Below, one piece after another: positions 2,276 to 16,990 of a stretch of DNA of 44,917 bases (positions are counted from its first letter, which is position 1; the number at the start of each line of letters is the position of its first letter). The notes under the pieces are model-generated. The model did no database searches and had not been told where the DNA came from. It saw only the letters and a list, made by a program, of their open reading frames with translations. The DNA is from a virus. The DNA lies in the IMG/VR virus record IMGVR_UViG_3300024262_000060, positions 1-44,917 of that record, one strand, 5' to 3'. The translations under genes were made by a program, and so were the position numbers.

Positions 2276-2319
2276 AATTGCTTTGCAATTACAATCTGCA
2301 CTTGAGATAAGATCTCAAG
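2276..2319 (-). promoter_or_regulatory. Tandem-hairpin leader element, copy A
   Basis: Two adjacent hairpins with 3-nt loops: AATTGC-TTT-GCAATT (2276-2290) and CTTGAGAT-AAG-ATCTCAAG (2301-2319), separated by 10 nt. In transcript direction (minus) the pair ends 33 nt before the start codon at 2243. The second hairpin shares GAGAT-NAG-ATCTC with copy C at 44860-44878. No T-run follows, so it is not an intrinsic terminator. A role in mRNA 5'-end formation, stability or translation is inference. Confidence 0.7.
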
Positions 2320-2343
2320 CTAGTTAATTAATTCACACTCACG

Positions 2344-2490
2344 CTAGGAAAGCTGACCGGAATCGTATGCGATAACTTCCATACAGGTAAGACACTCAAT
2401 ACAAACTCCACCATCTTTATAACAAGATACGGTTAATGTATGACCTTTATGATCTTTACACTCGGTAGAATCTTTTATAATCATTTCCAT
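2344..2490 (-). CDS. Small Cys-rich putative zinc-binding protein, 48 aa
   Basis: The protein starts MEMIIKDSTECKDHKGH and contains C11, H14, C23, C30 and C33 (CIEC and LTC), a spacing that could form a zinc ribbon. It ends near YDSGQLS. It sits in the same orientation and spacing as its neighbours. Small zinc-ribbon proteins recur in this genome (5501, 38261, 43970, 44343). The function of this one is unknown; binding to host proteins or nucleic acid is possible but unsupported. Confidence 0.6.
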   Translation of the reverse strand: MEMIIKDSTECKDHKGHTLTVSCYKDGGVCIECLTCMEVIAYDSGQLS

Positions 2491-2513
2491 TTTAATAGGG
2501 GTTAGTTAGTTAA

Positions 2514-2621
2514 TTAGTTCACACTCACGCAAGACGCTAAGACCCACACGATAACATCTAAAACGATGATCACGCCGGCAAATTTTAACACCGTTTCGAA
2601 ATTGTTAATTAAGTTTTGCAT
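2514..2621 (-). CDS. Very small membrane protein, 35 aa
   Basis: The ORF begins MQNLINNFETVLKFAG and continues into one strongly hydrophobic helix (VIIVLDVIVWVLASCVSV). A short polar N-terminus plus a single membrane segment is the only visible feature. It is kept because it fills the gap in the operon and its orientation matches its neighbours. Function is unknown. Confidence 0.5.
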   Translation of the reverse strand: MQNLINNFETVLKFAGVIIVLDVIVWVLASCVSVN

Positions 2622-2652
2622 AGCTTTGGATTTATGTAATAAATTTAAAGTC

Positions 2653-2663
2653 GAGCGAAGCGA
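2653..2663. repeat. GAGCGNAGCGA repeat, single copy
   Basis: GAGCGAAGCGA lies just upstream of the stop-side boundary of the 166-aa gene. The same motif recurs in variant form three times at 8110-8207. Confidence 0.5.
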
Positions 2664-2678
2664 AGGGTAGTTTGGGAT

Positions 2679-3179
2679 TTAAATAGTAAAGTTTTCCAAG
2701 CGCTCATTTAAGGCCCTCCTAGTAACATAGCTTTTTTCTGGGTAGTATAATGCTTTTGCCTCTGCAATCTTATTGTCAAGTTCTTTTAACTCAGCAAGAT
2801 ACAGTTCAAAATTACCACTATCAGCATTTAACTTTTCAATGCTTTCTTTTGTATACTTTATAAGGTTTTCGCATTGCTCTTTTAAATCAACGTAGCAATC
2901 GTTAACTGTTTTGTACCTGCTCCAGCCTGCTGGTTCATGGATATAGAATGAGATCATATTATCATAATCTATACCATTACCCCATGCACAAAACTTTATA
3001 TTGCTATAATCCTTATGCCAACTGATAGTATACTCAGGCAAGGCTTTCTCTGTAGCTGTAGCAAGTCTTTTGTTTAATGCTTTGCCTTCCCATGTAGTAA
3101 CAATTTCTAGAATTTGCTTTGCAACTAGCAAGCGTTTTTCCTGCTTTGCAATCTCTTCTGGATAGTTTGGATTTTCCAT
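2679..3179 (-). CDS. Hypothetical coiled-coil protein, 166 aa
   Basis: The protein begins MENPNYPEEIAKQEKRLLVA. Helical, probably coiled-coil segments lie at about residues 8-45 and 98-140, around a central beta-looking part (NIKFCAWGNGIDYDNMISFY) with aromatic and Gly residues. The start is preceded by an A/T-rich leader and a GCGGG/CCCGC hairpin 37 nt upstream. No known family or catalytic motif is evident. Confidence 0.65.
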   Translation of the reverse strand: MENPNYPEEIAKQEKRLLVAKQILEIVTTWEGKALNKRLATATEKALPEYTISWHKDYSNIKFCAWGNGIDYDNMISFYIHEPAGWSRYKTVNDCYVDLKEQCENLIKYTKESIEKLNADSGNFELYLAELKELDNKIAEAKALYYPEKSYVTRRALNERLENFTI

Positions 3180-3215
3180 TGTAATTGTTTAGTAAATAGT
3201 TTTTCACGCTGGTTT

Positions 3216-3233
3216 GCGGGTCGACTAGCCCGC
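3216..3233 (-). promoter_or_regulatory. Intercistronic hairpin before the 166-aa gene
   Basis: GCGGG (3216-3220) pairs with CCCGC (3229-3233) across an 8-nt loop. It lies 37 nt upstream of the start at 3179. There is no U-tract on the minus strand right after it, so it is not a canonical terminator. Confidence 0.5.
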
Positions 3234-3239
3234 TTTCTT

Positions 3240-3452
3240 TTAGTTAGTTGATAAATGCCATTTCATGGTATGTAAATAATCGCAAACATCAGAATCGCTA
3301 ATGTTAGCACTATAACCATGCTTGCTTTGTAAAATCATAAACGCTTTTAAGATACAGCTTTCTCGCTTGTCCCTATATCCCATGGGATTGCGATCTAATA
3401 CTTTTTTCACTTCACTTGTCGTGAAGTAGCTGTTTGGATTGATTGTTTTCAT
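3240..3452 (-). CDS. Hypothetical protein, 70 aa
   Basis: The protein begins MKTINPNSYFTTSEVKKVLD. It is mainly helical with a possible small DNA-binding fold (FTTSEVKKVLDRNPMGYR resembles a helix-turn-helix), but the match is weak. A GGCTT/AAGCC hairpin at 3487-3500 lies 35 nt before the start. The MKT beginning is shared with several genes in this cluster. Function is unknown. Confidence 0.6.
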   Translation of the reverse strand: MKTINPNSYFTTSEVKKVLDRNPMGYRDKRESCILKAFMILQSKHGYSANISDSDVCDYLHTMKWHLSTN

Positions 3453-3486
3453 GTTAGTTAGTTGTTAAGTTATAAACACTCTGAGA

Positions 3487-3500
3487 GGCTTATAAAAGCC
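3487..3500 (-). promoter_or_regulatory. Intercistronic hairpin before the 70-aa gene
   Basis: GGCTT (3487-3491) pairs with AAGCC (3496-3500) around a 4-nt loop, with a partial extension of flanking AGAG/CTCT. It lies 35 nt upstream of the start at 3452, the same placement as other hairpins in this arm. Confidence 0.45.
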
Positions 3501-3512
3501 CCTCTAGGCTGA

Positions 3513-3821
3513 TTATAACGCTAGGGCCAATGCATAGCCCCAAGTATTACTAGGCAAGGCCATAAACTCAAGCGTATATCCTAGAGCATTTATTTTGTCC
3601 TCTAGATCATTCTGTAATTCTTCAATATCAAATTGCTTATCCCCTAGATCATGCCTAGTGTTATCGTTTAAGGTCATGCCTAGGCTATTACACTCTAACA
3701 ATTTATATGTATCTGAATTACTATACTCAAAACTAATATTATCTAGCCGTTGCCATTCTTTATCTAGTACTTGCCATTGCTTGAATAGTTTACTTGCTTG
3801 TTTTTCTTGCATTGTTTTCAT
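3513..3821 (-). CDS. Hypothetical protein, 102 aa (MKTMQEKQ group)
   Basis: The protein begins MKTMQEKQASKLFKQWQVLD, with Gln/Trp-rich helices followed by a mixed C-terminal half ending NTWGYALALAL. The first codons match those of the neighbouring gene at 3887 (MKKMQEKQDW) and partly 4162 (MKTTQENK), while the rest of the proteins differ. This looks like a shared 5' cassette on unrelated coding sequences. A perfect 8-bp hairpin (3851-3871) lies 30 nt upstream of the start. Function is unknown. Confidence 0.6.
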   Translation of the reverse strand: MKTMQEKQASKLFKQWQVLDKEWQRLDNISFEYSNSDTYKLLECNSLGMTLNDNTRHDLGDKQFDIEELQNDLEDKINALGYTLEFMALPSNTWGYALALAL

Positions 3822-3850
3822 GTTAGTTTGGTTAAGTTATAAACATGTCT

Positions 3851-3871
3851 GAGCCTTTAAATAAAAGGCTC
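3851..3871 (-). promoter_or_regulatory. Intercistronic hairpin before the 102-aa gene
   Basis: GAGCCTTT (3851-3858) pairs perfectly with AAAGGCTC (3864-3871) around a 5-nt loop, 30 nt upstream of the ATG at 3819-3821. No U-tract follows on the minus strand, which argues against an intrinsic terminator. Confidence 0.6.
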
Positions 3872-3886
3872 TGAGCTGGCTATAAG

Positions 3887-4123
3887 TTAGCTAGGGAAAT
3901 CTCCAATAGATTGTAAGCAATTCCCATCTTTAAAATCTCCTGTTGGTTCGTTGTTCTCGTATAGCTCGAATTCTTCATATAGCCTGATACAGTCAAAGCC
4001 TTCATTCTTATACTCTTTAAAAATCTTCCTTGCCTTGTTTAAATCAGTAGTAAAGTCGTCCGTTTCATTTGCGAATATATGATAGTGTTTTCTCCAATCT
4101 TGTTTTTCTTGCATTTTTTTCAT
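3887..4123 (-). CDS. Hypothetical protein, 78 aa (MKKMQEKQ group)
   Basis: The protein begins MKKMQEKQDWRKHYHIFANE, then has a DDFTTDLNKARKIFKEYKNEGFDCIRLYEE segment (split here by description: residues about 22-51) typical of small alpha/beta phage proteins, with an acidic and aromatic tail. The start is preceded by the recurrent leader ending AATTACAAAATG. N-terminal codons resemble those of the neighbours at 3513 and 4162. Function is unknown. Confidence 0.6.
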   Translation of the reverse strand: MKKMQEKQDWRKHYHIFANETDDFTTDLNKARKIFKEYKNEGFDCIRLYEEFELYENNEPTGDFKDGNCLQSIGDFPS

Positions 4124-4161
4124 TTTGTAATTGGTTTAATTAATAGGTTTATAAATAGATC

Positions 4162-4392
4162 TCAATCGCAATCGTTGCAAAACATTTCTTCACCGTTTGA
4201 AAGTGTTGCTACCATTCCAAAGGTATTTTTTGCATATTCTACCCGTTGAATTCCTTTCACTGTTAGCTTTCTATCATGTAATGCATGATTTAATAGCTCA
4301 AACATTCTAAAACTAGGAACTGTAATACTTTCTTCAGTAGTACTATTGGTGAAAGTATACCCCTTGGCCTTGTTTTCTTGTGTTGTTTTCAT
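4162..4392 (-). CDS. Hypothetical protein, 76 aa (MKTTQENK group)
   Basis: The protein begins MKTTQENKAKGYTFTNSTTE and ends with SNGEEMFCNDCD, a possible half zinc knuckle (CNDC). It has the same AATTACAAAATG leader and a similar first ten codons as adjacent genes. No family is recognised. Confidence 0.6.
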   Translation of the reverse strand: MKTTQENKAKGYTFTNSTTEESITVPSFRMFELLNHALHDRKLTVKGIQRVEYAKNTFGMVATLSNGEEMFCNDCD

Positions 4393-4419
4393 TTTGTAAT
4401 TGTTAATGAATTAATAGGT

Positions 4420-4518
4420 TTATAAATAGATTTGTACTAAACACGCAACTTGTAAACTAAGAATGAATAGTGCGCATAAGAAAATGAATGCGTCTTTGTG
4501 TGATAGTGTTGTTTTCAT
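4420..4518 (-). CDS. Very small membrane or secreted peptide, 32 aa
   Basis: The peptide begins MKTTLSHKDAFIFLCALFIL and is one hydrophobic helix with a short basic N-terminus, consistent with a membrane anchor or an uncleaved signal. Its leader is the recurrent TTAACCAATTACAAAATG, identical to that of the gene at 4546-4710, which is the main reason for calling it real. Function is unknown. Confidence 0.55.
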   Translation of the reverse strand: MKTTLSHKDAFIFLCALFILSLQVACLVQIYL

Positions 4519-4545
4519 TTTGTAATTGGTTAAATAATAATTATT

Positions 4546-4710
4546 TTATACGCTTTCCCCGTTAGTCCTGCTAGCATACCACTCTCTAAACTCTTGGCCG
4601 CTTGCCTTGCAATCCTTTAACAGTTCCTTTTCAGTGCAATCCACTAGATCATCACTAGCCCAGCCCTCAAAGCTTACTAAATATTGCATGTATAATTGTT
4701 TGCTAGTCAT
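4546..4710 (-). CDS. Hypothetical protein, 54 aa, first gene of the leftward arm
   Basis: The protein begins MTSKQLYMQYLVSFEGWASD, is acidic and helical, and contains TEKELLKDCKASGQEFREWY. It is the first gene after the leftward promoter at 4747-4775, with a predicted 5' leader of about 30 nt. Being promoter-proximal, it is probably expressed early. It may be a host-takeover protein, but that is inference from position only. Confidence 0.6.
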   Translation of the reverse strand: MTSKQLYMQYLVSFEGWASDDLVDCTEKELLKDCKASGQEFREWYASRTNGESV

Positions 4711-4726
4711 TTTGTAATTGGTTAAA
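4708..4726 (-). promoter_or_regulatory. Recurrent SD-less translation leader (TTAACCAATTACAAAATG)
   Basis: On the minus strand the start codon is preceded by TTAACCAATTACAAA. The same or nearly the same block precedes the starts at 4518, 4392, 4123 and 1584. Looser forms precede 3821, 3452 and 3179. None contains a purine-rich Shine-Dalgarno sequence, so initiation probably relies on an unstructured A-rich leader. Confidence 0.6.
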
Positions 4727-4746
4727 TAATAAATGAAAGCATCACC

Positions 4747-4775
4747 ATTCTATCTGATAATTATAATCCCGTCAA
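4747..4775 (-). promoter_or_regulatory. Leftward sigma70-type promoter
   Basis: Read on the minus strand: TTGACG (-35, 4775-4770), a 17-bp spacer, TAGAAT (-10, 4752-4747). Transcription would start near 4740, leaving about 30 nt of leader before the ATG at 4710. It is the best candidate to drive the leftward early genes. Confidence 0.7.
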
Positions 4776-4988
4776 TAGTATTTTTTACATTACTTGTAAT
4801 ATTAGCTATGTATAATGTAATAGAATGACTTTAATAAGCCATAAACCTAGCAATTAAATAAACTTGACTTGATTAACTTTGTGTTGCTTAATGTTATTAC
4901 TTATATGTTATAGATGATTTAAATTTTAAGTAGCGTTTTAACGTGTTAAAACAGTGATACAACGAATTGCCTGCAATAGTGAGAATTC

Positions 4989-5017
4989 AAGGGGGTATAA
5001 GGGGGGATCAATTGCCG
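4989..5017. repeat. G-rich direct repeat, copy 1
   Basis: The copy reads AAGGGGG-TATAA-GGGGGG-ATCAATTGCCG. It shares the AAGGGG-TA-GGGGGG-ATTGCCG framework with 5368-5389. A GAATTC lies directly before it, and AATTC follows the second copy. Confidence 0.5.
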
Positions 5018-5124
5018 TCGAGCGTGCCATTTGAAAACTTTTCAAGGGTATTTTATACGATTGAACCATAAACTTGACAAGAATGCACAGAATATAGTGT
5101 GATATACATATTTAGCCTGTTTAC

Positions 5125-5148
5125 TTTGCACAAGACACATTGTGCAAA
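5125..5148. repeat. Perfect 9-bp inverted repeat in the control region
   Basis: TTTGCACAA (5125-5133) and TTGTGCAAA (5140-5148) are separated by 6 bp. This spacing suits a dimeric DNA-binding protein or a small cruciform near an origin. The MerR-like protein at 125-358 is one conceivable ligand, but nothing links them directly. Confidence 0.6.
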
Positions 5149-5248
5149 CTAAAACTACATACCCCTTTCCCTTAAATTTTGGCATACCCCTGCGGTTTAA
5201 AAGCAAACGGAGGGTGAAGTCGATCATTTAATTATAATAGGCGGCCTA

Positions 5249-5272
5249 CCCTACCCCTACCCTACCCCTCCC
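5249..5272 (-). repeat. G-quadruplex motif (five G-runs on minus strand)
   Basis: The plus strand has C-runs of 3, 4, 3, 4 and 3 separated by TA, TA, TA and T. The minus strand therefore reads GGG-A-GGGG-TA-GGG-TA-GGGG-TA-GGG, a telomere-like motif that meets the usual G-quadruplex rule with very short loops. It sits between the two arm promoters. Confidence 0.7.
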
Positions 5273-5367
5273 AGTATGTTCGAATCTGAGGGCAAGCGGG
5301 TACGGGGTGGCCTGTAGTGTTATGGACATCTCTCTGTGAGTGTCAGGTAAAAACATTTACCGAGATC

Positions 5368-5389
5368 AAGGGGTAGGGGGGTATTGCCG
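5368..5389. repeat. G-rich direct repeat, copy 2
   Basis: The copy reads AAGGGGTAGGGGGG-TATTGCCG and matches the framework of 4989-5017. It is followed by AATTC and a GGTAAA that can pair with a nearby TTTACC. Confidence 0.5.
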
Positions 5390-5441
5390 AATTCCCGGTA
5401 AAGGCTTTAAGTACTTAGGTGTAAAAAAATATATAAAAAAT

Positions 5442-5470
5442 TTGAAAAGGCAGGGGTAATATGGTATACT
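5442..5470 (+). promoter_or_regulatory. Rightward sigma70-type promoter
   Basis: TTGAAA (5442-5447), a 17-bp spacer and TATACT (5465-5470). The start site would be near 5477, about 24 nt before the ATG at 5501. It is the first promoter of the rightward arm. Confidence 0.75.
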
Positions 5471-5500
5471 ATAAGTATAGGGAAGATAACAAAACCCAGT

Positions 5501-5686
5501 ATGAGAACTACCTTTACATGTGACCTATGTCACGAAGAGAAGTATGACAAGCAGGTACACATGGACATAGACATCCTCTACGGGGATGCGTTCACAGACA
5601 ATGACTATAAGGGTAGGTATCTTATATGCCCGGCTTGTACGGAAGGTATGAAGGCATCGTGGTGTGGTATGTTTGACAATAAGTGA
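5501..5686 (+). CDS. Zinc-ribbon protein, 61 aa, first gene of the rightward arm
   Basis: The protein begins MRTTFTCDLCHEEKYDKQVH and has two CxxC knuckles, CDLC (residues 7-10) and CPAC (about 43-46), about 32 residues apart, as in small zinc ribbons. It is the first gene after the promoter at 5442-5470, so it is probably an early product. Small phage zinc ribbons often bind host RNA polymerase or nucleic acid, but I cannot assign a partner. The following 660 bases are non-coding. Confidence 0.75.
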   Translation: MRTTFTCDLCHEEKYDKQVHMDIDILYGDAFTDNDYKGRYLICPACTEGMKASWCGMFDNK

Positions 5687-5947
5687 AACTTTCCTCTTAG
5701 GTGTTACGAACGGTAACAGGTGTTGCTCTAAGAGGTTGTGGAAGTGAGTTGGCACAGAAGCGTAAAGCAGTACTAGCTTTATATGTACACCCAACCCAGG
5801 GGGAGTGACAAAACCTGTTAGCAACCATACAGGCTCCCCCTGTGATAATAATTGACAATTAGCTGGTGCTTGTATAGAGAGGCTACAAGCTAAGTGAGGA
5901 GCTGTGTAAGCACACTGCGGTGGAAAGGGGGAACTAACAGCCAGCTA
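5687..5947 (+). ncRNA. Structured non-coding segment with three helical domains
   Basis: No convincing ORF is present. Three nested helices are visible. CCTCTTAG (5693-5700) pairs with CTAAGAGG (5728-5735) around an inner TGTTAC/GTAACA hairpin. CAGGGGGAG (5797-5805) pairs with CTCCCCCTG (5834-5842) around an inner CCTGT/ACAGG hairpin. TAGCTGG (5860-5866) pairs with CCAGCTA (5941-5947) around a GCTTGTA/TACAAGC hairpin. The last outer helix has the same sequence as the acceptor helix of the tRNA-like gene at 6097-6239. It could be a stand-alone RNA, a cleaved leader or a regulatory region between the zinc-ribbon gene and the tRNA-like genes. No known class is recognised. Confidence 0.55.
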
Positions 5948-5948
5948 T

Positions 5949-5989
5949 ATTGTATACATCAAAAGAATGATTGTATACTGATTGTATAC
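5949..5989. promoter_or_regulatory. Three phased ATTGTATAC direct repeats
   Basis: ATTGTATAC occurs at 5949-5957, 5970-5978 and 5981-5989. Start-to-start spacings are 21 and 11 bp, close to two and one helical turns, so bound proteins would lie on one face of the DNA. The core GTATAC is palindromic. This resembles an operator array for the small-gene operon starting at 6351. Confidence 0.6.
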
Positions 5990-6001
5990 TAACTAAACCA
6001 A

Positions 6002-6040
6002 ATGAAACAAACAAAGGAAGACAAGAAACTTAACAATTAG
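6002..6040 (+). pseudogene. Truncated duplicate of the start of the gene at 6602 (12 codons)
   Basis: The sequence from the leader ACCAAATGAAAC through the codons for MKQTKED duplicates the start of the gene at 6602-6889 (MKQTKEEK), then stops after 12 codons. It could be a decayed copy, a leader peptide, or a trace of recombination between identical leaders. Confidence 0.35.
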
Positions 6041-6096
6041 TATGTATCGTCTTCAATCTTAGGATTGATGAAGGAATTCTATTGCTTTCAACCAAT

Positions 6097-6239
6097 TAGC
6101 TGGTGGTGGAATAGGTAGACGCAAAGTTTCCTAGGAACAACAAGAGGCTACTGTCCTAGGACGACCTCATGTAGGGTGACTATACGAGTATGGGTGGGGG
6201 TGTCTCCCCGCCGACCCTCGTCAAATCCCTACCCAGCTA
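6097..6239 (+). tRNA. Leu-type tRNA-like gene with enlarged internal segments
   Basis: The 5' end fits a class II (Leu-like) tRNA: acceptor strand TAGCTGG, then TG, then a D-arm GTGGAATAGGTAGACGC. The 3' end fits too, with TCAAATCCCTAC followed by the acceptor partner CCAGCTA (6233-6239). The 143-base length is far above the usual 85-90. The T-stem strand pairing with CCCTAC is GTAGGG at 6171-6176, so the T-loop would be split by about 43 bases that themselves fold (GGGG/CCCC nested in GGGT/ACCC and ACGAG/CTCGT). The anticodon arm is unclear: a weak GTT/AAC stem encloses TCCTAGG. No CCA is encoded. This may be an intron-bearing tRNA, a decayed tRNA or a tRNA-derived structured RNA. Confidence 0.45.
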
Positions 6240-6262
6240 AGGTTGAAGGCGATGTGTACTAT

Positions 6263-6335
6263 CGGGGCGTAGTGTTAATGTTAGCATCTGGTATATGTAT
6301 CAGAGGAGGGGGTTCGATTCCTCCCGCCCCGACCA
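6263..6335 (+). tRNA. tRNA-like gene with encoded CCA and atypical anticodon loop
   Basis: The 73 bases show a 7-bp acceptor (CGGGGCG/CGCCCCG), discriminator A and encoded CCA, a D-arm (GTGT/GCAT), and a perfect T-arm with loop TTCGATT. The anticodon arm is odd: CTGGT/ATCAG leaves a 6-nt loop (ATATGT), and the alternative TCTGG/TCAGA leaves an 8-nt loop. A normal 7-nt loop is not obtained, so the isotype is undetermined. The conserved D-arm resembles Gln- or Glu-type tRNAs. It lies 27 nt after the Leu-like element and just before the small-gene operon. Confidence 0.6.
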
Positions 6336-6350
6336 TTAAATAAAACAACA

Positions 6351-6437: not shown

Positions 6438-6443
6438 ACAACT

Positions 6444-7384: not shown

Positions 7385-7403
7385 GCGTGTCAAGTTAAAA
7401 GAC

Positions 7404-7432
7404 TTGACGAGTATGAGTTGTGGCGCTATAAT
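7404..7432 (+). promoter_or_regulatory. Consensus-like sigma70 promoter before the structured region
   Basis: TTGACG (7404-7409), a 17-bp spacer and a perfect TATAAT (7427-7432), the best promoter match I find in the window. Its -35 element lies within a 7-bp hairpin (GTCAAGT/ACTTGAC). Transcription would start near 7439, exactly where the structured non-coding region begins. Confidence 0.85.
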
Positions 7433-8109
7433 TAATATAGAGGGGTAGGAAGAACACAGGTTCTTTTATCCGGTGGACCATGAACTATACAATCAGTACT
7501 TTTCTCCCATAACAGGGAGCAAGTAGGAGTGGCGGTAGGCGCTTTATATTCCCTACTACAGAAGTGCTTCTGGGTTTATCGCTCAGTCCCTGTGAATGGG
7601 GTGGGTAAGAGAAGCAGCATGAAAAATAGGACGAATGGCGAAAGCGACCGCTCCTACTAGGCCCGGCAGAATAAGATTCTGGGGTAGTCCAAAGGAGCGT
7701 GGTTAATATGTGCCTAATGATCGGATGGGTTAGCTAAGCCACTAGGGGAAGCGTAGAACCCCCGAAGGAAAAATAAGATACCGTATAATATTATATTGTA
7801 CTGAGACTCAGTGGTAGTCATAAGAAAGTGATAGTTTGGTAAACGTGGACTATCAAGATACACACTGTTTAAAATAATCACGACAGGTTGGCTTTTCCCA
7901 CTTTTTTTTAAAAAAGGTGAATTTACAGGGGGGGGGAAAGGCTAATACTCTAATATTCTCTAGTGACCTGAGTTAATCGTATACGATTGGTTAAGGTCAA
8001 CAGAGAAGGCCCGTTCGCATCTTCCAGATGCTCAGGGCGGATTCAGCGAGGCAAAGATAAAACAAGAAAGAAAAATAAATATATATTCTCATAATTGACT
8101 AACCCTGCT

Positions 8110-8207: not shown

Positions 8208-8227
8208 GGGAATAGGCGGAACAAGGA

Positions 8228-8261
8228 ATAGGTATACAGTGTTAAGGACAACTGTGCCTAT
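8228..8261 (+). promoter_or_regulatory. Leader hairpin before the gene at 8283
   Basis: ATAGG (8228-8232) pairs with CCTAT (8257-8261) and ACAGT (8236-8240) with ACTGT (8251-8255). It lies 22 nt before the ATG at 8283, followed by an A-rich leader, as for other genes of this phage. Confidence 0.55.
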
Positions 8262-8282
8262 ATAAATAAAACAAAAACAAAT

Positions 8283-8519: not shown

Positions 8520-8676
8520 AGAGGAGCAGACTTTAACGGAGGATGAGATACAGGCTAGGTTTGGTAATAGGAAAGGAGGAACCAGGCCACGTGGGAAGGT
8601 ATGTGTTAAATCCTTGTTGAATCCGAACATAGATGATGATGAATATTTCGCATACTTGGATGCGTTAAGAAGATGA
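8512..8676 (+). CDS. Hypothetical protein, 54 aa
   Basis: The protein begins MDREEQTLTEDEIQARFGNR, has a basic middle (RKGGTRPRGKVCVK) and an acidic aromatic C-terminus (DDDEYFAYLDALRR). It overlaps the gene before by 8 bases and the terminase small subunit by 4. It is most likely translated in a coupled manner with TerS. Function is unknown. Confidence 0.6.
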   Translation: MDREEQTLTEDEIQARFGNRKGGTRPRGKVCVKSLLNPNIDDDEYFAYLDALRR

Positions 8677-9305
8677 ACCCTAAGAGGAAGAAGACGTACA
8701 GGGCTAACAATCCATATTGTTTAGTGCCGAGGAGATGGGAGTTTGTTAAGGAGTACATTAAGAATGGGTTTAATGGAGTGAAAGCTATAGAGGCTACGAT
8801 AGACCAGCATAATCTTGTACGCAACACTGATGAGAAGAAGAGGAGGGTATCGTCAGCGGTAATGGCTTGTAGATACATGAATGACCCCATAGTTTTATAC
8901 GCTGTAAAGCATCAATTATATATTATGAATAAGGATATTACGGAAGATTATTTAACCACGTCGTTGTTAGATCTGGAAGGAGATGCTAAGGCAGATGGTG
9001 ATAAGAAGGTATTGATAGACGTGTACAAGGTAATGATGAAGTTGAAAGGGTTAGGTAGTGAGAAGGTGGTTAATGAAAACATAGAGAAGAGTCAGTTTTC
9101 TTTAATGAGTCCGGAAGAGTTAAAGTTAAAGTTAGTTGAAGCGGTTAGGATATTAGAGAGTAGTGGACAGTTAGACGTAGATGAATTTATCGGGTTATTA
9201 AAGGATAAGCCTGGAGAGTTGAACAATGGTGCCACTGTAGAAATAGTAGCAGAAGAAGTCGAAGAAAGTCAAGAAGAAGAATCCAATCAAGAAGAAAATG
9301 AATGA
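8673..9305 (+). CDS. terS: Terminase small subunit-like protein
   Basis: This 210-residue protein sits directly upstream of the terminase large subunit and overlaps it by 4 bases. Residues 22-75 (FVKEYIKNGFNGVKAIEATI, then a run ending VMACRYMNDPIVLYAV) follow the pattern of the N-terminal helix-turn-helix of Terminase_2-type small subunits. A helical oligomerisation region follows, and the C-terminus is a low-complexity Glu/Gln/Ser tail. TerS recognises the packaging site on phage DNA and regulates the motor. Position and fold pattern both support the call; sequence match to a named family is not shown here. Confidence 0.7.
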   Translation: MNPKRKKTYRANNPYCLVPRRWEFVKEYIKNGFNGVKAIEATIDQHNLVRNTDEKKRRVSSAVMACRYMNDPIVLYAVKHQLYIMNKDITEDYLTTSLLDLEGDAKADGDKKVLIDVYKVMMKLKGLGSEKVVNENIEKSQFSLMSPEELKLKLVEAVRILESSGQLDVDEFIGLLKDKPGELNNGATVEIVAEEVEESQEEESNQEENE

Positions 9306-10807
9306 GTGAAGTTACGTTCTTAGAGGACATAGAGACCCAGAAGTGTTCAGCAGGAATAGATGGGTGTATTTATTTTATACGGACTTATTGTAAGTTGCGA
9401 CATCCCTTGCATGGGAAGATACCATTTGATCTTTTTCCTTATCAGGAGAAGGCGTTAAGGGATTTCGCATCTAATCGTAAGTGTGTTTTGTTGAAGAGTA
9501 GGCAGATGGGGTTCAGTTGGTTAATAGCTGCGTATAGTTTATGGTTAGCTAGTTTCAAAGATGATGCTGAGATCCTGTTGATGAGTAGGAAAGAGAAGGA
9601 TGCACAGGAGTTATTGTATAAGGTTAGGTTCATGCACGATCTTTTACCTAGGTTTCTTAGGTTGAAGAGGATGGCTGACCAGGATAGTAAGAGTATCTTA
9701 GGGTTCCGAAATGGTTCAAGGATCCAGTCTTTACCAGCTACAGAGCAGTCAGGACGAGGAGGAGCTGGTACGTTAGTAGTGATAGATGAAGCAGCGTTTA
9801 TCCCATGGGGGGAGCAGGTGTTTGCAGCGTTGAAGCCTACGTTAAGTACAGGAGGTAGTTTGATAATACAGAGTACTGCACCGGATCAAGGAGGAGAGAA
9901 TTTGTTTGCTAGGTTATGGCATCATTATGAAGAGACAGGTTTCCATAAGTGTATAGGGATAGGAGAAGAGAGTATGGAGAAGCAGATGATACACTGGAGT
10001 GATAATCCTGATAGAGATGATAAATGGTTTGAAGAAGAGAGACCTGGTTATACTGAGAGACAGTGGCAGACGGAGATGGAAGGTAGTTTTGAACAGAGTA
10101 CACGAAGGGTATTCCCTGAAGAGATCTTAAAGTTACATAATGCTGATTGGAAGAAAGGAGATTTAGGAGAATTATATTGTGAAGAAGTTGATCCGTTTGA
10201 GATGTATGCTATAGGATTCGATCCAGCTGAAGGGTTGGAGAAAGGAGATTATAGTGTAGCACAGGTATTAAGGAAGAGTGATGGTAAACAGGTATGTATA
10301 TATAGGAGTAGGAAGCCTTTGATAAATGCTTCTGAAGACGTTGTTGTATTAGCTAGGCGGTGGAACACTGCTGTACTGGCTATCGAGGATAACAATGTAG
10401 GAGTTGTAGCAGTGAACATAGCGAAGAAGAGATATAATAATTTATATAAGAGGAAGGTTATCGATAAGAAGACTGATCGCATGACTGAGAAGATTGGTTG
10501 GCGTAGTACTAAGAGGACTAAGCCTTTATTGGTAAGGGATTTAGAGATGGCCTTAAGGGATCGAGAGATTAAGTTGACTGATAAGGATACCAGACAAGAG
10601 ATGTGGCAGTACGAGTATGACGAGAATGGTGCTACTAATGCACCAAGGGGACAGTATTATGATGATTGTGTAATGAGTTTAGGAGTAGCGTATCAAGCTT
10701 TGAAGCAGTTACCTACACCTGAACAGTTCGCTAAACGGCAACAGTTGAAGAAGAACAGGAAGACAAGGATGCTCAAGAGGGTTCGTAGTTCTAGTATAGG
10801 ATATTAA
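9302..10807 (+). CDS. terL: Terminase large subunit (DNA-packaging ATPase/nuclease)
   Basis: The 501-residue protein has the expected two-domain layout. The ATPase domain has a Walker A variant KSRQMGFSW (65-73), Walker B TLVVIDEAAF (157-166, with D162/E163) and a coupling-motif region near IIQSTAPDQG (188-197). The RNase H-like nuclease domain has D307 in IGFDPAEG, D316, an E362/D363 acidic motif in LAIEDNN and the DD pair 454-455 in YYDDCVMSLG. It cuts concatemeric DNA and drives it into the prohead through the portal encoded next. The length is normal for the family and all key motifs are present. Confidence 0.95.
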   Translation: MSEVTFLEDIETQKCSAGIDGCIYFIRTYCKLRHPLHGKIPFDLFPYQEKALRDFASNRKCVLLKSRQMGFSWLIAAYSLWLASFKDDAEILLMSRKEKDAQELLYKVRFMHDLLPRFLRLKRMADQDSKSILGFRNGSRIQSLPATEQSGRGGAGTLVVIDEAAFIPWGEQVFAALKPTLSTGGSLIIQSTAPDQGGENLFARLWHHYEETGFHKCIGIGEESMEKQMIHWSDNPDRDDKWFEEERPGYTERQWQTEMEGSFEQSTRRVFPEEILKLHNADWKKGDLGELYCEEVDPFEMYAIGFDPAEGLEKGDYSVAQVLRKSDGKQVCIYRSRKPLINASEDVVVLARRWNTAVLAIEDNNVGVVAVNIAKKRYNNLYKRKVIDKKTDRMTEKIGWRSTKRTKPLLVRDLEMALRDREIKLTDKDTRQEMWQYEYDENGATNAPRGQYYDDCVMSLGVAYQALKQLPTPEQFAKRQQLKKNRKTRMLKRVRSSSIGY

Positions 10808-10821
10808 ACATAAAAAGAAAT

Positions 10822-12792
10822 ATGGAAAAAAATAAAACACCGATTACTGTAGAGGACATTCACAAGATAGGTGAAGAAGCTGAAGGCAGGAATGGCCAGA
10901 GTAAAGAGCATCAAGAGATTGTTGATAAGGTATTTGAAAGGTTCAGGGTTGACAAAGATGCTAAGAGTCTTATTGACTTGGATCATTCTGAAGCCTTAGA
11001 AGAATACGAGAATGTATTAGCAGGATCCCCAGATGGGTTAGCTAATATTAAGAATCCTATTCTATTCAGTGTGGTACAGAATAAGATCGCTGAGGAGTTA
11101 AGTGCTATGCCTGATATTAGATTCATGCCTGTTAAGCAGAGTGATAGAGGATATGTAGCTCCTATAAAGGCTGCGTATAATCATTCAACTGCTAACAGTA
11201 GATTCAATTACAACTTGTACAAGTGTTTCTTATGGAAAGATATTACTGGTACAGGGATAGGAAGAGAAGGGTATGTACAAGAAGTTAGAACAGTATTTGA
11301 CTTAGTACCTAAGAAAGATAAGAATGGTAAGTTCGTAAAGGATGCAGAAGGTAATCCTATTATGGAGAAGAAAGCTAGAGTGCATTACGACTTTGACGAT
11401 TTAATGTTGACCTGTATTGACCATAGAAGATTCTTCCCTGACGCTAGGGCAGAGGATATGGAGACAGCTAGATGGACAACTGAGATAGAGGAAGTTGATT
11501 ACGATGAATGGAGAATGAGTGCTGAGTATGATGATAGTCTTATAAAGGAGAACATTGACATGGTAACTCCTGAGAATATCTATAGTTACAATTACCCATT
11601 CGGTATTTCTTACATGTCAACAGAGGAACAGAAACGTATTATAGAAGGACAGACTTCTAGTAATAGAGTATTGTTAGTGAAACATTTTGATAAACTAGCT
11701 GATGCGTATTACATAGTTGCTAATGGTGTACTGGTTAGGGACACACCTAATCCGTATGCACACAAGCAGATACCTTATGTTAGGTTTGTCAACTACGAAG
11801 AGTTGGCTTCCTTCTGGGGTAGAAGTGAGTACAAGGTATTGAAACAGAATATTGAGGAGCAGAATTTCTTAAGTAACAACTTAGCTGACTGGTCTAAGAT
11901 TAATATTAATAGACCTATATTAGTAGGTGCAACAGACTTTGAGGATGAAGATATTGAGTTTGCTCCTGGTGCTATTTGGCATTTAGGTGATGTGAATCAG
12001 GTAAAGGTAATGGATTTAGGAGATGTACCTAGTGGTATCTTTGGTTTAAGGGATGTATTGAATAGTGACATTGTTGCTTATACAGGTATTGATCCAAGGG
12101 CTTTATCTTCTAGTAAGGAAGAGACAGCTACTAGATCAGCGTTAAAGCAGGAGAAGTTCTTGAAACGTATTGGTATGGGGCTAAGGTTAGTTGATTGGAC
12201 AGCGTTAGAACCTTTCGCAAAGATGAGGTTAGCTAATATCCAGCAGTTTTATTCAGAGAAGAGAGTGGAGATGATGTTTGATTCTGAGGATAATTTAGTA
12301 GCTAAGACTATGGGATACAGGGATATACGTGTCCCTGATGTTGATGTTATTAAGGATGACAAGGGTAACTTAAAGTTCATTGATCGTAAAGGAGCGTTAA
12401 GTTTCTTCCAAGCTAAGCCTGATGTTATTAACGCACAGATGGATGTACAAGCTGTTACAGGTAGTACATTGAGTACTAGTAAAGAGGTTGATAGACAGAA
12501 CTTTAATAACGCATTACAGAGTATGGCAGCGTTCCCAGAATTGAGACAGTTACTTAACTGGACATATATAGGACAGGAGTTAGCTAAGAAGAATGGATTG
12601 AATGAGAATGAGATGGTGAAGACAGCTGAGACAATGGAACCTGAGATAGATGAGAATGTACCTACTGAACAGTTATTGAAACAGGCAGGTATTAATCCTC
12701 CAGGTACAGAGCCAGAAGCTGAGCCTATACCGGAAGATGTAGCGACAGAAGATATATTAGCAAATGCAGGGATTAACCAACCACAAGTATGA
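10822..12792 (+). CDS. Portal protein
   Basis: The 656-residue protein directly after TerL has portal characteristics: an acidic helical N-terminus, a long mixed core, the helical stretch around NFLSNNLADWSKININRP and GAIWHLGDVNQVKVMDLGD, and a region ALSSSKEETATRSALKQE resembling the tunnel-loop/helix region of P22-like portals. The C-terminus is Pro/Glu-rich with two similar peptides (LLKQAGINPPG and ILANAGINQPQ), perhaps a short duplication. It forms the dodecameric DNA channel at one capsid vertex. It overlaps the next gene by 4 bases. Confidence 0.85.
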   Translation: MEKNKTPITVEDIHKIGEEAEGRNGQSKEHQEIVDKVFERFRVDKDAKSLIDLDHSEALEEYENVLAGSPDGLANIKNPILFSVVQNKIAEELSAMPDIRFMPVKQSDRGYVAPIKAAYNHSTANSRFNYNLYKCFLWKDITGTGIGREGYVQEVRTVFDLVPKKDKNGKFVKDAEGNPIMEKKARVHYDFDDLMLTCIDHRRFFPDARAEDMETARWTTEIEEVDYDEWRMSAEYDDSLIKENIDMVTPENIYSYNYPFGISYMSTEEQKRIIEGQTSSNRVLLVKHFDKLADAYYIVANGVLVRDTPNPYAHKQIPYVRFVNYEELASFWGRSEYKVLKQNIEEQNFLSNNLADWSKININRPILVGATDFEDEDIEFAPGAIWHLGDVNQVKVMDLGDVPSGIFGLRDVLNSDIVAYTGIDPRALSSSKEETATRSALKQEKFLKRIGMGLRLVDWTALEPFAKMRLANIQQFYSEKRVEMMFDSEDNLVAKTMGYRDIRVPDVDVIKDDKGNLKFIDRKGALSFFQAKPDVINAQMDVQAVTGSTLSTSKEVDRQNFNNALQSMAAFPELRQLLNWTYIGQELAKKNGLNENEMVKTAETMEPEIDENVPTEQLLKQAGINPPGTEPEAEPIPEDVATEDILANAGINQPQV

Positions 12793-13070: not shown

Positions 13071-13078
13071 ATTGTTCC

Positions 13079-13134
13079 CAGCGATTAAGGTCGCTGCGGT
13101 GGTTATGAGTTCTGGTCCCTCTCATAGCTACCAC
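13079..13134 (+). promoter_or_regulatory. Two-hairpin leader before the scaffold gene
   Basis: CAGCGA (13079-13084) pairs with TCGCTG (13091-13096). GTGGT plus TATGAG (13099-13109) pair with CTCATA and ACCAC (13121-13134, 3-nt bulge). The second hairpin ends 39 nt before the ATG at 13173. No T-run follows. It may set scaffold and capsid expression level relative to the portal. Confidence 0.55.
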
Positions 13135-13172
13135 AGTGCCTTTAATGGTGCTTTATATATTAACTTTTGTTT

Positions 13173-13895
13173 ATGGATGAAGACAGAAACTCTGAAGCTA
13201 AGGCTGAAGAGACTGGTAGTGATGGAGACAACATAGTTGAAACTCCAACTGAACCAGGGACTACACAGGAGCCTAATGGTAAACCTGAGGGTGAAGAAAC
13301 TACAAGTGGAAATCCTGAAGGTGAGACAGGTGACACAGTATTTGGTGAACCGGAAAAGCCGGTATCACAATTTAAAAGTGTTGAAGATGCGGAGAAATCT
13401 TGGAGAGAGACTCAATCGTACGCTAGTAAGTTACAATCTGAACTTGACTCGGTCAAGCAGGAATTGTCACAGGCTAAGAATGCGGGAGGGAATAACTCTG
13501 ATGTTTCAAAACTTGAAGCGGAGATAAAAAGTATTAAGGTGAATCAGACAATTCACAATGCTTTTAATTCGTTTAGGGATACGCATTCAGACTTTACTGG
13601 TGGTGTGCAGTTAGCGACTAAAGAGATTATCGACACGTACATACGTGCAGGTAAACCGATTAAGTTGTTAGATGCGTACATACTAGCGAAGGCTAAACTT
13701 GGTCTTACTGGGGATGAATCTGATCCTTCTATAAGTCAAAAGAAAATCCAGTCTGCTTCTCTGGGGACAGCAGTATCTGGAGGTTTACCTAACAAGGTAA
13801 ATAAAATGGACGATCCTGCAACAGCAGCTAGAAAGGCTAAGTTCAGTGATCCGAAATATTTCTCCCCAGGTCTAAGAAAATTACTTAACAAATAA
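13173..13895 (+). CDS. Scaffolding-like protein
   Basis: I take the ATG at 13173 (MDEDRNSEAKAEETGSDGDN); an in-frame TTG two codons upstream is less likely. The 240-residue protein is strongly acidic and disordered for about 65 residues. It then has a coiled coil at about 70-105 (KLQSELDSVKQELSQAK), a helical middle, and a basic C-terminus ending YFSPGLRKLLNK. Acidic N-terminus, coiled coil, basic C-terminus and position just before the capsid genes are typical of scaffolding proteins that guide prohead assembly. No protease domain is visible. Confidence 0.75.
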   Translation: MDEDRNSEAKAEETGSDGDNIVETPTEPGTTQEPNGKPEGEETTSGNPEGETGDTVFGEPEKPVSQFKSVEDAEKSWRETQSYASKLQSELDSVKQELSQAKNAGGNNSDVSKLEAEIKSIKVNQTIHNAFNSFRDTHSDFTGGVQLATKEIIDTYIRAGKPIKLLDAYILAKAKLGLTGDESDPSISQKKIQSASLGTAVSGGLPNKVNKMDDPATAARKAKFSDPKYFSPGLRKLLNK

Positions 13896-13900
13896 AAAAC

Positions 13901-14311
13901 ATGGATTTCAAAGTTGTAGGTCCTAGCGAAGAGCTAAGGACTATGCGATGTACTGTTGCTACTGCGACAGTTATCGAAGCAGGAGATCTCGTAGGTCTAA
14001 CTAACGGTATTATCGTGAAAGGAACTGCTGCCCACACTGCACTTGCATACTGTCCTAAAGGTTCTGCTAATGGGGAAACAGTATGTGATGTGACTGTAGG
14101 AAACGACTTCTTGCTAGAAGGAACAGGAGATGCAGTATTTGCTGTAACTCAAAAAGGAACTGAGGTTGACCTAGTTGTAAACGCTAATGTACAACAGATC
14201 GACGTTGGTGAGTCTACTACAGACGTACTAAAGGTTGATGCTTCTGAAGATGCAGGAACTGCTGGTGTCGCTGCTGGTATCAGAGTAAGAATCAACAAAC
14301 CTCTAGTATAG
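13901..14311 (+). CDS. Capsid decoration-like protein, 136 aa
   Basis: The protein begins MDFKVVGPSEELRTMRCTVA. It is small, beta-rich and Ala/Thr/Val/Gly-rich throughout, with few charged helices. Its position between scaffold and major capsid protein matches head-decoration or stabilisation proteins of many tailed phages. It ends in a TAG codon. The call rests on composition and position; no specific family is identified. Confidence 0.6.
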   Translation: MDFKVVGPSEELRTMRCTVATATVIEAGDLVGLTNGIIVKGTAAHTALAYCPKGSANGETVCDVTVGNDFLLEGTGDAVFAVTQKGTEVDLVVNANVQQIDVGESTTDVLKVDASEDAGTAGVAAGIRVRINKPLV

Positions 14312-14353
14312 ATCGGACCAAAACAAACATTTATTTTATAAAAACAAAAAGAT

Positions 14354-15283
14354 ATGGATAGTACAGCTTATGCTTTGTCTGCTGTCAAAGATCTAAAAGA
14401 ATCTTTCGACAACGCACAACAGCTTAGTATGGATCAGTACATGGATTCGAAACTTTTCGACATCTATTCAACTACAGAGGTATTCGAAGTTTACACTTCT
14501 ACTGAAGGGTTGACTGGTTCTAAACTACTTGGTGAACTTGAGACACCTCCATCTCTATCTCTTGAAGAGGGTTACACAGTAACAATCAGAGAGAAGAGAT
14601 TTGGTGGAGCGGTAATTCTACCTGAACAAGTTTACAGACGTGACGGTAACGACTCTACTATGAAAGTAGATCAGTTCCTAATGCGTCAAAGAGATCAACT
14701 AATTAAGGATAACACTAACTTCCTATTGGTTGAGATGCACAAAATGTACAATGAGGCCTTTGATAACACTTCAGATTATCTTGCTCCAGATGGAGTAGAG
14801 ATTTGTGGTTCACATACATGGAACTCAGGTGGTACATTCGACAATGGAGTAACTGCTGCCTTCTCAGAAGACGAGGTAGACACAGCACTAGAATACGCAG
14901 GAGCGTTTACAGATCCGTCTGGTAAACCTATGCCACTTAACTTCAATACAATCGTTGTTAAGAAAGGTTCTGCTGCTTCAAGACTAGCTAAAAGATTGTT
15001 TGCTATGGGTATTAGCCCAGTAGCAGTAGCTGACATCAACATTTACGAAGGAGAGTTTACAATCATTGAGACTCCTTATATCAGTGCTGCTAATAAAGCT
15101 TACTGGTTTATGTTGGATTCAACACTAGACAATCCTCTTAAGGTTGGAATCGGAGAGTATCCTACTCTACGTGAGCCTATCAAAGAGAGTAACGAGTCTA
15201 TTAGAACTAATGTAACTGGGTTTTGGAAACAAGGCTGTGTCAACATGAGCTATAGTATATATGGAAGTAACGGTACAACTTAA
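14354..15283 (+). CDS. Major capsid protein (HK97-fold type)
   Basis: The 309-residue protein follows the scaffold and decoration genes. It has a long N-terminal helix segment (SAVKDLKESFDNAQQLSMDQ), an E-loop-like region (TVTIREKRFGGAVILPEQVY), a spine helix (QFLMRQRDQLIKDNTNFLLV) and a beta-rich P/A-domain C-terminus, consistent with HK97-fold major capsid proteins. The gene uses synonymous codons slightly differently from its neighbours (more ACT, CTA and TTC), as expected for a very highly expressed product. A hairpin follows at 15327-15351. Confidence 0.85.
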   Translation: MDSTAYALSAVKDLKESFDNAQQLSMDQYMDSKLFDIYSTTEVFEVYTSTEGLTGSKLLGELETPPSLSLEEGYTVTIREKRFGGAVILPEQVYRRDGNDSTMKVDQFLMRQRDQLIKDNTNFLLVEMHKMYNEAFDNTSDYLAPDGVEICGSHTWNSGGTFDNGVTAAFSEDEVDTALEYAGAFTDPSGKPMPLNFNTIVVKKGSAASRLAKRLFAMGISPVAVADINIYEGEFTIIETPYISAANKAYWFMLDSTLDNPLKVGIGEYPTLREPIKESNESIRTNVTGFWKQGCVNMSYSIYGSNGTT

Positions 15284-15326
15284 TCTGGTCTTTCAAATAT
15301 ACCTTTGGGGTTCGACGGAAGCAAGT

Positions 15327-15351
15327 AGAGAGGAGGGTAATTCTCCTCTCT
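15327..15351 (+). terminator. Terminator-like hairpin after the major capsid gene
   Basis: AGAGAGGAG (15327-15335) pairs perfectly with CTCCTCTCT (15343-15351) around a 7-nt loop. The following CACCCCTTTATT has only a weak T-run, so it may attenuate or protect the 3' end of capsid mRNA and not fully terminate. Confidence 0.55.
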
Positions 15352-15437
15352 CACCCCTTTATTAATTAAATTACCTAACACACATGCGTACAATTTTAAA
15401 TTTCAGTACCGAGGGCCTTGTAATATAGGAAATCCTA

Positions 15438-15452
15438 CCGGGAGTCACCCGG
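15438..15452 (+). promoter_or_regulatory. Leader hairpin before the head-fibre gene
   Basis: CCGGG (15438-15442) pairs with CCCGG (15448-15452) around AGTCA. It ends 27 nt before the ATG at 15479 and is followed by an A-rich leader, the same arrangement seen elsewhere in this genome. Confidence 0.5.
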
Positions 15453-15478
15453 ACAAATATAAATTAAAACAAAAAAAT

Positions 15479-16567
15479 ATGGCACACAAAGAAAGATTTG
15501 TTGCTACTGGTGGAGGTTATTGGGTAAAAGATGGCCAATTTGGCGCACTTACTCAAGTAATTGATTCTAGTGGTAACATCAAAGGGAACATTCAAGAGGC
15601 TCTTACACAAGGGTCTATTTACGTAGGTGATGCTGCTGGTATCACTTCAGAGCTTGCTGTTGGTACAACAGGGCAAGTTCTTACTTCTAATGGTACTACT
15701 GCTGCTTGGTTAGCTGGTGGAGTTCCAAGTGGAACAGAAATCGAAGCTGTGAACGATACAGCTACAGGAGCAGTGTTAGACTTCTTCCATGACTCAGCTA
15801 GTCCAGCTAGTGATGATGCACTTGCTATTCAGAATTTCTACGGAAACGACGATGGTGCTGTGAAGACATTATACGCAAAGACAATCGCTGTACTTGGAGA
15901 CCCTACTGGGGGTTCTGAAGCAGGGGCTTTGTTTTCTTTCGTTGCTAATGGCGCTGGTGCTTTACAGAGTGAACCAGACATGGCAGTTTCTCCTGGAGAG
16001 GCTGGCTTTACTTACGAGAATGACGGTGCAGATGGACAGACTCTTTACCTTGAAACAATATCCGCTACTCCAGCACCTTTAGATATTGTTGGTAAGATAC
16101 CAATGTACGGTCAAAACGATGCTACTACTAGTATAGAGTATGCAAATATTCAGACAGTTATTGATGACCCAGCTAACGGTGCAGAGTTTGGATTCTTGAG
16201 ACTATCTGCTGTTGCAGGTGGTTCACTACAAACAGTAATTGATGTTTATGGGGACTTAGTAGAAATTGCTAAACCTGTACTTTACACACAGACACCTCAG
16301 GCTCTTACTGGAGCAGGTGCAGTAGACGTTACTTCCCAAACAACTGCTTGGGATTGTAATGGAGCTGTTGCAGGTACGCTTGTAGACGGTAACCAAGGAC
16401 AAAGAAAACTTATTTATTGTAGTGCTTATACAGGAAATGGAACATTGACTCCATCAAACCTGTTGGGTTACTCAACTATTACATTCTCTGCTGTAGGGCA
16501 ATCTGCTCTACTTGAGTTTAGAGGTGCTAGCTGGGTAGTTGTTAGCGCAACCGCTACACTAGCTTAA
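15479..16567 (+). CDS. Head fibre or capsid-attached fibre protein
   Basis: The 362-residue protein begins MAHKERFVATGGGYWVKDGQ. It contains the motif GQVLTSNGTTAAWLAG at about residues 66-81, a repeat type common in phage fibre shafts, followed by Gly/Ala/Asn-rich beta segments and a compact C-terminal domain from about residue 270. Its place just after the major capsid gene points to a head fibre or decoration fibre. It could bind cell surface or other particles; the ligand is unknown. Confidence 0.65.
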   Translation: MAHKERFVATGGGYWVKDGQFGALTQVIDSSGNIKGNIQEALTQGSIYVGDAAGITSELAVGTTGQVLTSNGTTAAWLAGGVPSGTEIEAVNDTATGAVLDFFHDSASPASDDALAIQNFYGNDDGAVKTLYAKTIAVLGDPTGGSEAGALFSFVANGAGALQSEPDMAVSPGEAGFTYENDGADGQTLYLETISATPAPLDIVGKIPMYGQNDATTSIEYANIQTVIDDPANGAEFGFLRLSAVAGGSLQTVIDVYGDLVEIAKPVLYTQTPQALTGAGAVDVTSQTTAWDCNGAVAGTLVDGNQGQRKLIYCSAYTGNGTLTPSNLLGYSTITFSAVGQSALLEFRGASWVVVSATATLA

Positions 16568-16583
16568 TCGGTTTAAATCTTTA

Positions 16584-16602
16584 GGGCAAGACTTACTTGC
16601 CC
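16584..16602 (+). terminator. Terminator-like hairpin before the 117-aa gene
   Basis: GGGCAAG (16584-16590) pairs with CTTGCCC (16596-16602) around ACTTA, followed by a T-containing tract without a clean run. It lies 35 nt before the ATG at 16637 and so also fits the leader-hairpin pattern. Confidence 0.5.
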
Positions 16603-16636
16603 TTCAGTTTAAGTTTATTAATTTAACCAAAAAGGG

Positions 16637-16990
16637 ATGAAAGTAATTCAACTGAACCAGAATATTCTGGACAAAGACGGTGTGATAGTAAAGGCTAAGT
16701 CTCCTGTCAAGGTGATGGAGGAGATAGAAGGGAAGGAGATGGAGATTGAAAGATTAGAGGAGAAGGTAGTTACGCTTGGAGCTATGCTTTGTAAGGCGCT
16801 ACTACGTAATGACGGTGGTAAACCGGAAGAAGAAGTAGTGAAACGATACAACCTCAATAAGAAGATATATGGTTGTGAAGCTGCTGAACTAACAGACGAG
16901 GAACTAGTTTATCTTAGAGGACTTGTGTGTGAAGCCTTTGAGATCTTCTTTGCTGGACAGATTTTAGAATTATTAGATAACGTAAAATAA
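16637..16990 (+). CDS. Hypothetical structural-operon protein, 117 aa
   Basis: The protein begins MKVIQLNQNILDKDGVIVKA. Residues 26-50 form a charged coiled coil (EEIEGKEMEIERLEEKVVTL), followed by a helical C-terminal half. Its position among virion genes suggests a minor head, connector or assembly protein. It ends 1 base before the next gene's ATG. No family is recognised. Confidence 0.6.
   Translation: MKVIQLNQNILDKDGVIVKAKSPVKVMEEIEGKEMEIERLEEKVVTLGAMLCKALLRNDGGKPEEEVVKRYNLNKKIYGCEAAELTDEELVYLRGLVCEAFEIFFAGQILELLDNVK

Follow-up and report, generated by a model that had tools for sequence, protein, structure and literature searches.

The DNA analyzed here, which we call the window, is a 44,917-nt IMG/VR virus record (IMGVR_UViG_3300024262_000060) of a tailed phage. 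Its genes lie on two diverging arms that split at about 5-8 kb, and they encode, among others, a terminase, a portal protein, a DnaB helicase, a PD-(D/E)XK nuclease, and a NUMOD4/HNH endonuclease. We studied the hairpins that stand in gaps between these genes, together with the short leaders that separate each hairpin from the next start codon. A preliminary description of the sequence had named ten starts preceded by a hairpin and an A/T-rich leader without a Shine-Dalgarno (SD) sequence, and had considered both RNA processing and the blocking of upstream structure as possible functions. Gene counts below refer to 68 ATG open reading frames (ORFs), chosen by hand from ORF tables and not by an independent gene caller.

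The constant element of this layout is the leader, not the hairpin: an A-rich, SD-free, weakly paired stretch of about 15-35 nt. The claim that SD sequences are absent holds throughout the gene set, as an SD-like 4-mer occurs at -20 to -3 of none of the 68 starts. A is enriched at -3, -6, and -11 to -13, with frequencies of 0.67 at -3, 0.57 at -6, and 0.63 at both -12 and -13 (calculated over 46 of the 68 starts), a pattern that matches the A enrichment of Flavobacterium johnsoniae leaders as given in excerpted text of PMC6847099. Mean pairing probability, computed for 67 genes, drops from about 0.55 to 0.43 at -20 to -11 and to 0.34 at -10 to -1. Most of the 68 genes are too tightly spaced for a hairpin: outside the 15 gaps of at least 35 nt examined below, most starts have gaps of <30 nt, and hairpin-free gaps are often no more than a leader of 18-29 nt.

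Hairpins are present at all ten starts named earlier (Table 1), and the distances quoted for them are close to our re-measured values of about 15-36 nt, which vary with where the stem is cut. They also exceed chance expectation in the comparison with shuffled sequences that had been proposed. Among 18 starts with an upstream gap of at least 42 nt or an adjoining promoter, a hairpin detector set to a threshold of 18 found five whose ATG is preceded, at 15-45 nt, by the end of a sense-strand hairpin. Shuffled sequences gave 0.35 on average, with none of 200 shuffles reaching five, and coding windows gave 1.23. At the same threshold, such a hairpin was found at six of all 68 starts versus 1.77 in shuffles, and half of the ten hairpins named earlier were recovered. 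Eight of 15 same-strand gaps of at least 35 nt fold better than shuffles (p<=0.05); these 15 are what remained of 18 folded rows after three were dropped as overlapping genes. Outside the hairpin before 13173, stems are mostly 8-11 bp long, and three hairpins, those before 3179, 15479, and 8283, are weak when taken singly (local z of -1.3, -2.0, and -2.8), with the 3179 gap no longer significant on a re-run (p 0.10).

Table 1. Hairpins, leaders, and reference genes in the window
Feature	Position	Strand	Remarks
Cassette, copy 1	44828..44879	-	9-bp/3-nt loop, 3-nt linker, 11-bp/3-nt loop; 23-26 nt before ATG 44804
Cassette, copy 2	2268..2320	-	About 27 nt before ATG 2243
Cassette, copy 3	43544..43602	-	Begins directly after upstream stop; 15 nt before ATG 43530
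Cassette-free copy of 44748-44914	1..114		Alternative allele at contig ends
Leader of 2490	2491..2513	-	Cassette-free paralogue of 2243 junction
A/T-rich, SD-free leader of 44804 (example)	44805..44827	-	
Long hairpin, 26 bp	13081..13149	+	23 nt before ATG 13173; local z -6.18
Single hairpin, 9 bp	3483..3504	-	30 nt before ATG 3452
Single hairpin, 8 bp	3851..3871	-	29 nt before ATG 3821
Weak hairpin, 5 bp	3216..3233	-	36 nt before ATG 3179; local z -1.29
GC hairpin, 5 bp	15438..15452	+	26 nt before ATG 15479
Perfect hairpin, 8 bp	16583..16603	+	33 nt before ATG 16637
Imperfect hairpin	8228..8261	+	21 nt before ATG 8283
16-bp hairpin, large loop	42363..42423	-	99 nt before ATG 42263; absent from the preliminary description
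Terminase	9302-10807		
Portal	10822-12792		
DnaB helicase	40128-41462		

Where a hairpin and a leader share a gap, the distance from the hairpin to the upstream stop is shorter than that to the ATG in seven of seven gaps (P 0.007), and hairpin and ATG are at least 15 nt apart (P 0.003 if placement were uniform), with the limits of the hairpins set by hand from folds. According to a study of Prevotella bryantii, expression is unchanged (1.34 relative protein) when a hairpin of -9 kcal/mol stands at -21 (PMC3155529 section 12), and in excerpted text on Prevotella constructs a hairpin start at -14 to -18 goes with lower output. The tolerated hairpin at -21 and the dip in pairing to 0.34 directly before the start both agree with the part of the preliminary description in which the hairpins leave a clean, unstructured start region. 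Its statement that placement is conserved stands in that the spacing exists, but the spacing is mostly geometry, because a gap is made up of a hairpin plus a leader. If a clear leader is needed, a hairpin is confined next to the upstream stop, and the spacing then seems conserved. The exclusion of hairpins from the ribosome landing area would thus explain the spacing without RNA processing.

The hairpins had also been described as differing in sequence. Stem sequences do differ between sites, but the description missed that the tandem hairpins at 44804, 43530, and 2243 are related. To judge from their sequences, these three pairs are copies of one cassette of ~52 nt. The copies before 44804 and 2243 have the same form, and in the copy before 43530 the first hairpin has diverged and the linker is 5 nt. 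A leave-one-out covariance model, built from the first two copies, ranks the third first among its new matches within the window, at 23.3 bits (E 0.001); the next-best match has 14.6 bits. In the alignment of the three copies, 88.3% of pairs are standard, and four of 20 pairs have changed on both sides.

The cassette also varies in its presence. The ends of the window overlap, positions 1-114 matching 44748-44914, and the left-end copy differs by the absence of the cassette (at 79/80) plus two further bases. A near-identical contig (L001, 99.88% identity to the window) stops at precisely the last base that the two end forms share (window position 80), breaking off as an assembly branch would, and the end difference could be an assembly artefact instead of a pair of true alleles. 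The junction before 2490 resembles the 2243 junction on both sides and is cassette-free. Presence and absence are thus both seen within this phage, and the other phages scanned gave no copy: the model found nothing convincing in eight comparator loci and no copy in a second, more distant relative (L055, below) and 12 further TerL-bearing loci. A pattern search of viral contigs returned 37 stretches, 36 of which come from outside the phage studied here, lack the tandem structure, and are apparently coding. No description of this cassette was recognized among the titles and abstracts of a limited literature library. The cassette seems to come and go at junctions, and may be mobile. A bolder proposal, that a ~52-nt tandem triloop-hairpin cassette (9-bp hairpin, 3-nt linker, 11-bp hairpin) is spreading among the early genes of a phage without SD sequences and serves there as a pre-formed insulator of start codons, with compensatory stem changes and presence/absence alleles in one population, is one in which we have little confidence.

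Two further comparisons bear on whether pairing outlasts changes in sequence. In the 3452 and 3821 leaders, the flanks of the hairpins are homologous, and the stems still pair with four of eight pairs changed on both sides, a count that depends on our choice to anchor the stems at their outer ends and that an indel could lower. The second comparison is with L055 (IMGVR_UViG_3300008255_000572; TerL 62% and portal 53% identical to the window), besides which no distinct relative exceeding about 35% identity was found. The L055 gap flanked by orthologues of 12789 (33% identity) and 13173 (31%) contains a 26-bp hairpin (z -4.97), as does the orthologous gap in the window. Position and size of the hairpin are conserved, and its sequence is unalignable. 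Elsewhere in L055, a hairpin stands before 8393, with none in the window at the corresponding 14354, and another before 9401, a gene weakly related to 15479; the leader before 10407 is only 19 nt. SD sequences are nearly absent from L055 (one of 17 starts has one), versus 4-13 starts with SD per locus in 16 other loci. RNase III processing sites have stems of about 20 bp or more, a size reached by the 13173 hairpin and its L055 counterpart (26 bp each) and by none of the 8-11-bp hairpins. Given this size and the counterpart in L055, the 13173 hairpin probably serves as a cleavage site of the RNase III type.

Structured gaps are common among other phages. We ran one pipeline (gaps of 40-120 nt, simple ORF caller) on the window and seven comparator phages, with Cellulophaga phi14:2 and phi10:1 compared as 50-kb parts. 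The window has a mean gap-fold z of -2.02, with seven of 11 gaps at p<0.05. The corresponding values are -2.57 (9/13 gaps) for T7, -2.14 (3/8) for phi14:2, -2.04 (5/10) for Flavobacterium 11b, and -1.62 (5/12) for Bacteroides B40-8, in whose gaps a GC hairpin is followed by an A-rich leader, as in the window. MW202803, which we took as the closest named phage, reaches -0.81 (2/10), phi10:1 reaches -0.71 (3/13), and FCL-2 -0.31 (2/10). Significantly folded gaps are frequent, too, in 17 TerL-bearing loci, a subset selected by length and rank from 80 kept. Because several comparators are equally hairpin-rich in their gaps, the hairpin-plus-leader layout is ordinary. A search of viral contigs for the leader motif AACCAATTACAAAATGAA gave seven stretches, of which two belong to the near-identical contig and the others are apparently unrelated.

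Transcription signals were also considered. A promoter-like TTGACC-18-TATAGT adjoins the 44804 gene, and this is the only cassette copy with a promoter beside it, inspection by eye having shown none before 43530 or 2243. Sigma-70-like promoters are plausibly placed before 44804 and at 5442, 7404, and 43274, with overall counts at chance. The Bacteroidota promoter consensus is TTTG-N-TANNTTTG; it has one match in the window versus 0.99 expected, and we rejected a firm Bacteroidota host because the motif is at chance. No T-run directly follows a sense-strand stem, apart from one sub-stem before 13173, and terminator-like counts are at chance (8 found versus 10.1 expected; 11 versus 6.9). The reading of the hairpins as intrinsic terminators was rejected, as the stems lack T-runs.

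On balance, it seems somewhat probable that the phage translates without SD pairing, that its hairpins are mRNA structures of an ordinary intergenic kind, and that A-rich, clear leaders confine them; shielding, segmenting, an RNase III site, and a duplicating cassette all form part of this account. Each start codon would require about 15-30 nt of unstructured, A-rich RNA, a requirement suggested by the Prevotella data, and any hairpin in the gap would be restricted to the part adjoining the upstream stop. There, the hairpins most likely keep the cistron upstream from base-pairing with the leader, and most likely protect or segment the polycistronic mRNA. The 13173 hairpin would probably be cut, and the two-hairpin cassette appears to have been duplicated, with a presence that varies by junction and a mobility that these differences suggest.

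Several observations weigh against this account. No significant hairpin was found in seven of the 15 gaps of at least 35 nt (those of 43212, 4123, 2621, 14354, 15479 over its whole 195-nt gap, 17296, and 34657), so a hairpin is not required. The covariation of the cassette comes from three rows, and its count of both-sided changes was reached in 43 of 500 shuffles. The check for compensatory changes that had been proposed, applied to the 13173 hairpin and its L055 counterpart, yielded 0 shared column pairs and thus showed no covariation. There is little structural excess in FCL-2, phi10:1, and MW202803. Finally, the Prevotella analogy may not apply, given sigma-70-like promoters and a Bacteroidota motif at chance.

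The processing idea of the preliminary description, that hairpins mark or cause RNA cleavage and so give each downstream cistron a short, native-like 5' leader, draws on the resemblance between post-hairpin leaders and the 20-30-nt leaders of hairpin-free genes, and on the RNase III size of the 13173 hairpin and its L055 counterpart. Against it, most stems are 8-11 bp, which is short for RNase III, and most of the 68 genes lack a hairpin and are presumably translated nonetheless. An SD-less ribosome would impose just such a clearance, so processing is not needed for the spacing. We consider cleavage at the hairpins in general unlikely. The hairpins might instead serve the 3' end of the upstream cistron, as weak terminators or exonuclease blocks. 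Their proximity to the upstream stop in seven of seven gaps would fit, but leader clearance predicts the same asymmetry, and the scarcity of T-runs and the chance-level terminator counts tell against termination; this explanation, too, strikes us as rather improbable.

Selfish or neutral palindromes, mobile and tolerated between genes, would account for the three related cassette copies, the presence/absence allele pair, and the cassette-free paralogous junction. They would not account for the hairpins before 3452, 3821, 16637, and 13173, which are not cassette copies, and neither the tandem structure in any of the 36 other pattern matches nor a convincing copy in the eight comparator loci was found. 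We hold the idea to be unlikely. A very doubtful alternative holds that the palindromes are DNA or RNA operators for a phage regulator. The cassette does contain 6-3-6 palindromes, and the hairpin about 40 nt before the start of T4 gene 43 offers a precedent (PMC3014915, in the excerpted text), but stem sequences vary between sites, including the first hairpin before 43530.

The preferred account, ordinary structures confined by clear leaders, places the window near several described systems. Like the SD-independent leaders of Bacteroidota (F. johnsoniae, P. bryantii), its leaders are SD-free, carry A at -3, -6, -12, and -13, and have low structure around the start, and hairpins beyond this stretch appear to be tolerated, as one at -21 is in P. 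bryantii; unlike them, they belong to a phage, one in which the Bacteroidota promoter motif is not enriched. T7 has RNase III processing sites between its genes, and the long intercistronic hairpins at 13173 and in L055 are similar, whereas the other window hairpins have stems of 8-11 bp. T4-type phages carry mobile promoter/stem-loop (PeSL) cassettes, the nearest mobile hairpins described (Arbiol 2010; Comeau 2014; both as cited in PMC4503421). Like the window cassette, these are small stem-loop cassettes in early-gene intergenic sites and are variably present; unlike PeSLs, the window cassette consists of two tandem hairpins, lacks a terminator T-run, and has a promoter beside one of three copies. 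Regulatory structures lie 40-70 nt before the starts of T4 genes 43 and 32, according to the same excerpts of PMC3014915. The gene 43 RNA operator resembles the window hairpins in standing about 40 nt before a start and differs in being a sequence-specific repressor site, whereas the window hairpin sequences differ from gene to gene.

Other features of these sequences deserve mention. Each arm of the hairpin before 42263 holds TGGTATCAT, a promoter-like extended -10. A tRNA-like cloverleaf with an encoded CCA end lies at 6262-6336 (+) (fold z -4.0); ARAGORN called no tRNA in the window, this cloverleaf included, and an Rfam scan of the window gave a single sub-threshold, tmRNA-like match, at the cloverleaf, and none at the hairpins. 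The interval 7388-7530 (+) is apparently non-coding, folds strongly (z -3.9) without an Rfam match, and contains a promoter-like TTGACG-17-TATAAT at 7404-7432; the fold of the adjacent 7600-7745 is not unusual (z -0.7). GAGCG..AGCGA motifs are repeated at 2653, 8110, 8172, and 8195, and the copies at 2653 and 8110 overlap GCGAAGC, a very stable mini-hairpin in DNA. In L055, five ordinary tRNAs (2277-2671) lie just upstream of the terminase, and a frame at 4223-4676 that by eye resembles an HNH endonuclease (cysteine pairs), without an ATG start, separates terminase and portal, an interval of 14 nt in the window. Of 26 differences between the window and L001, 19 fall within 8666-12354, a clustering that suggests a recombined patch. 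Searches of annotated phages with the terminase and DnaB gave distant matches only, every one at <60% identity; a portal search of the same phages gave no match, and a portal-profile search of genome contigs confirmed no relative.

The spacing rule is in itself an expected one and adds nothing new. Phages whose hosts ignore SD pairing allow the amount of clear RNA required by a ribosome to be tested in nature, and, if the cassette is mobile, a phage could gain or lose an mRNA insulator while the ribosome landing site stays untouched.

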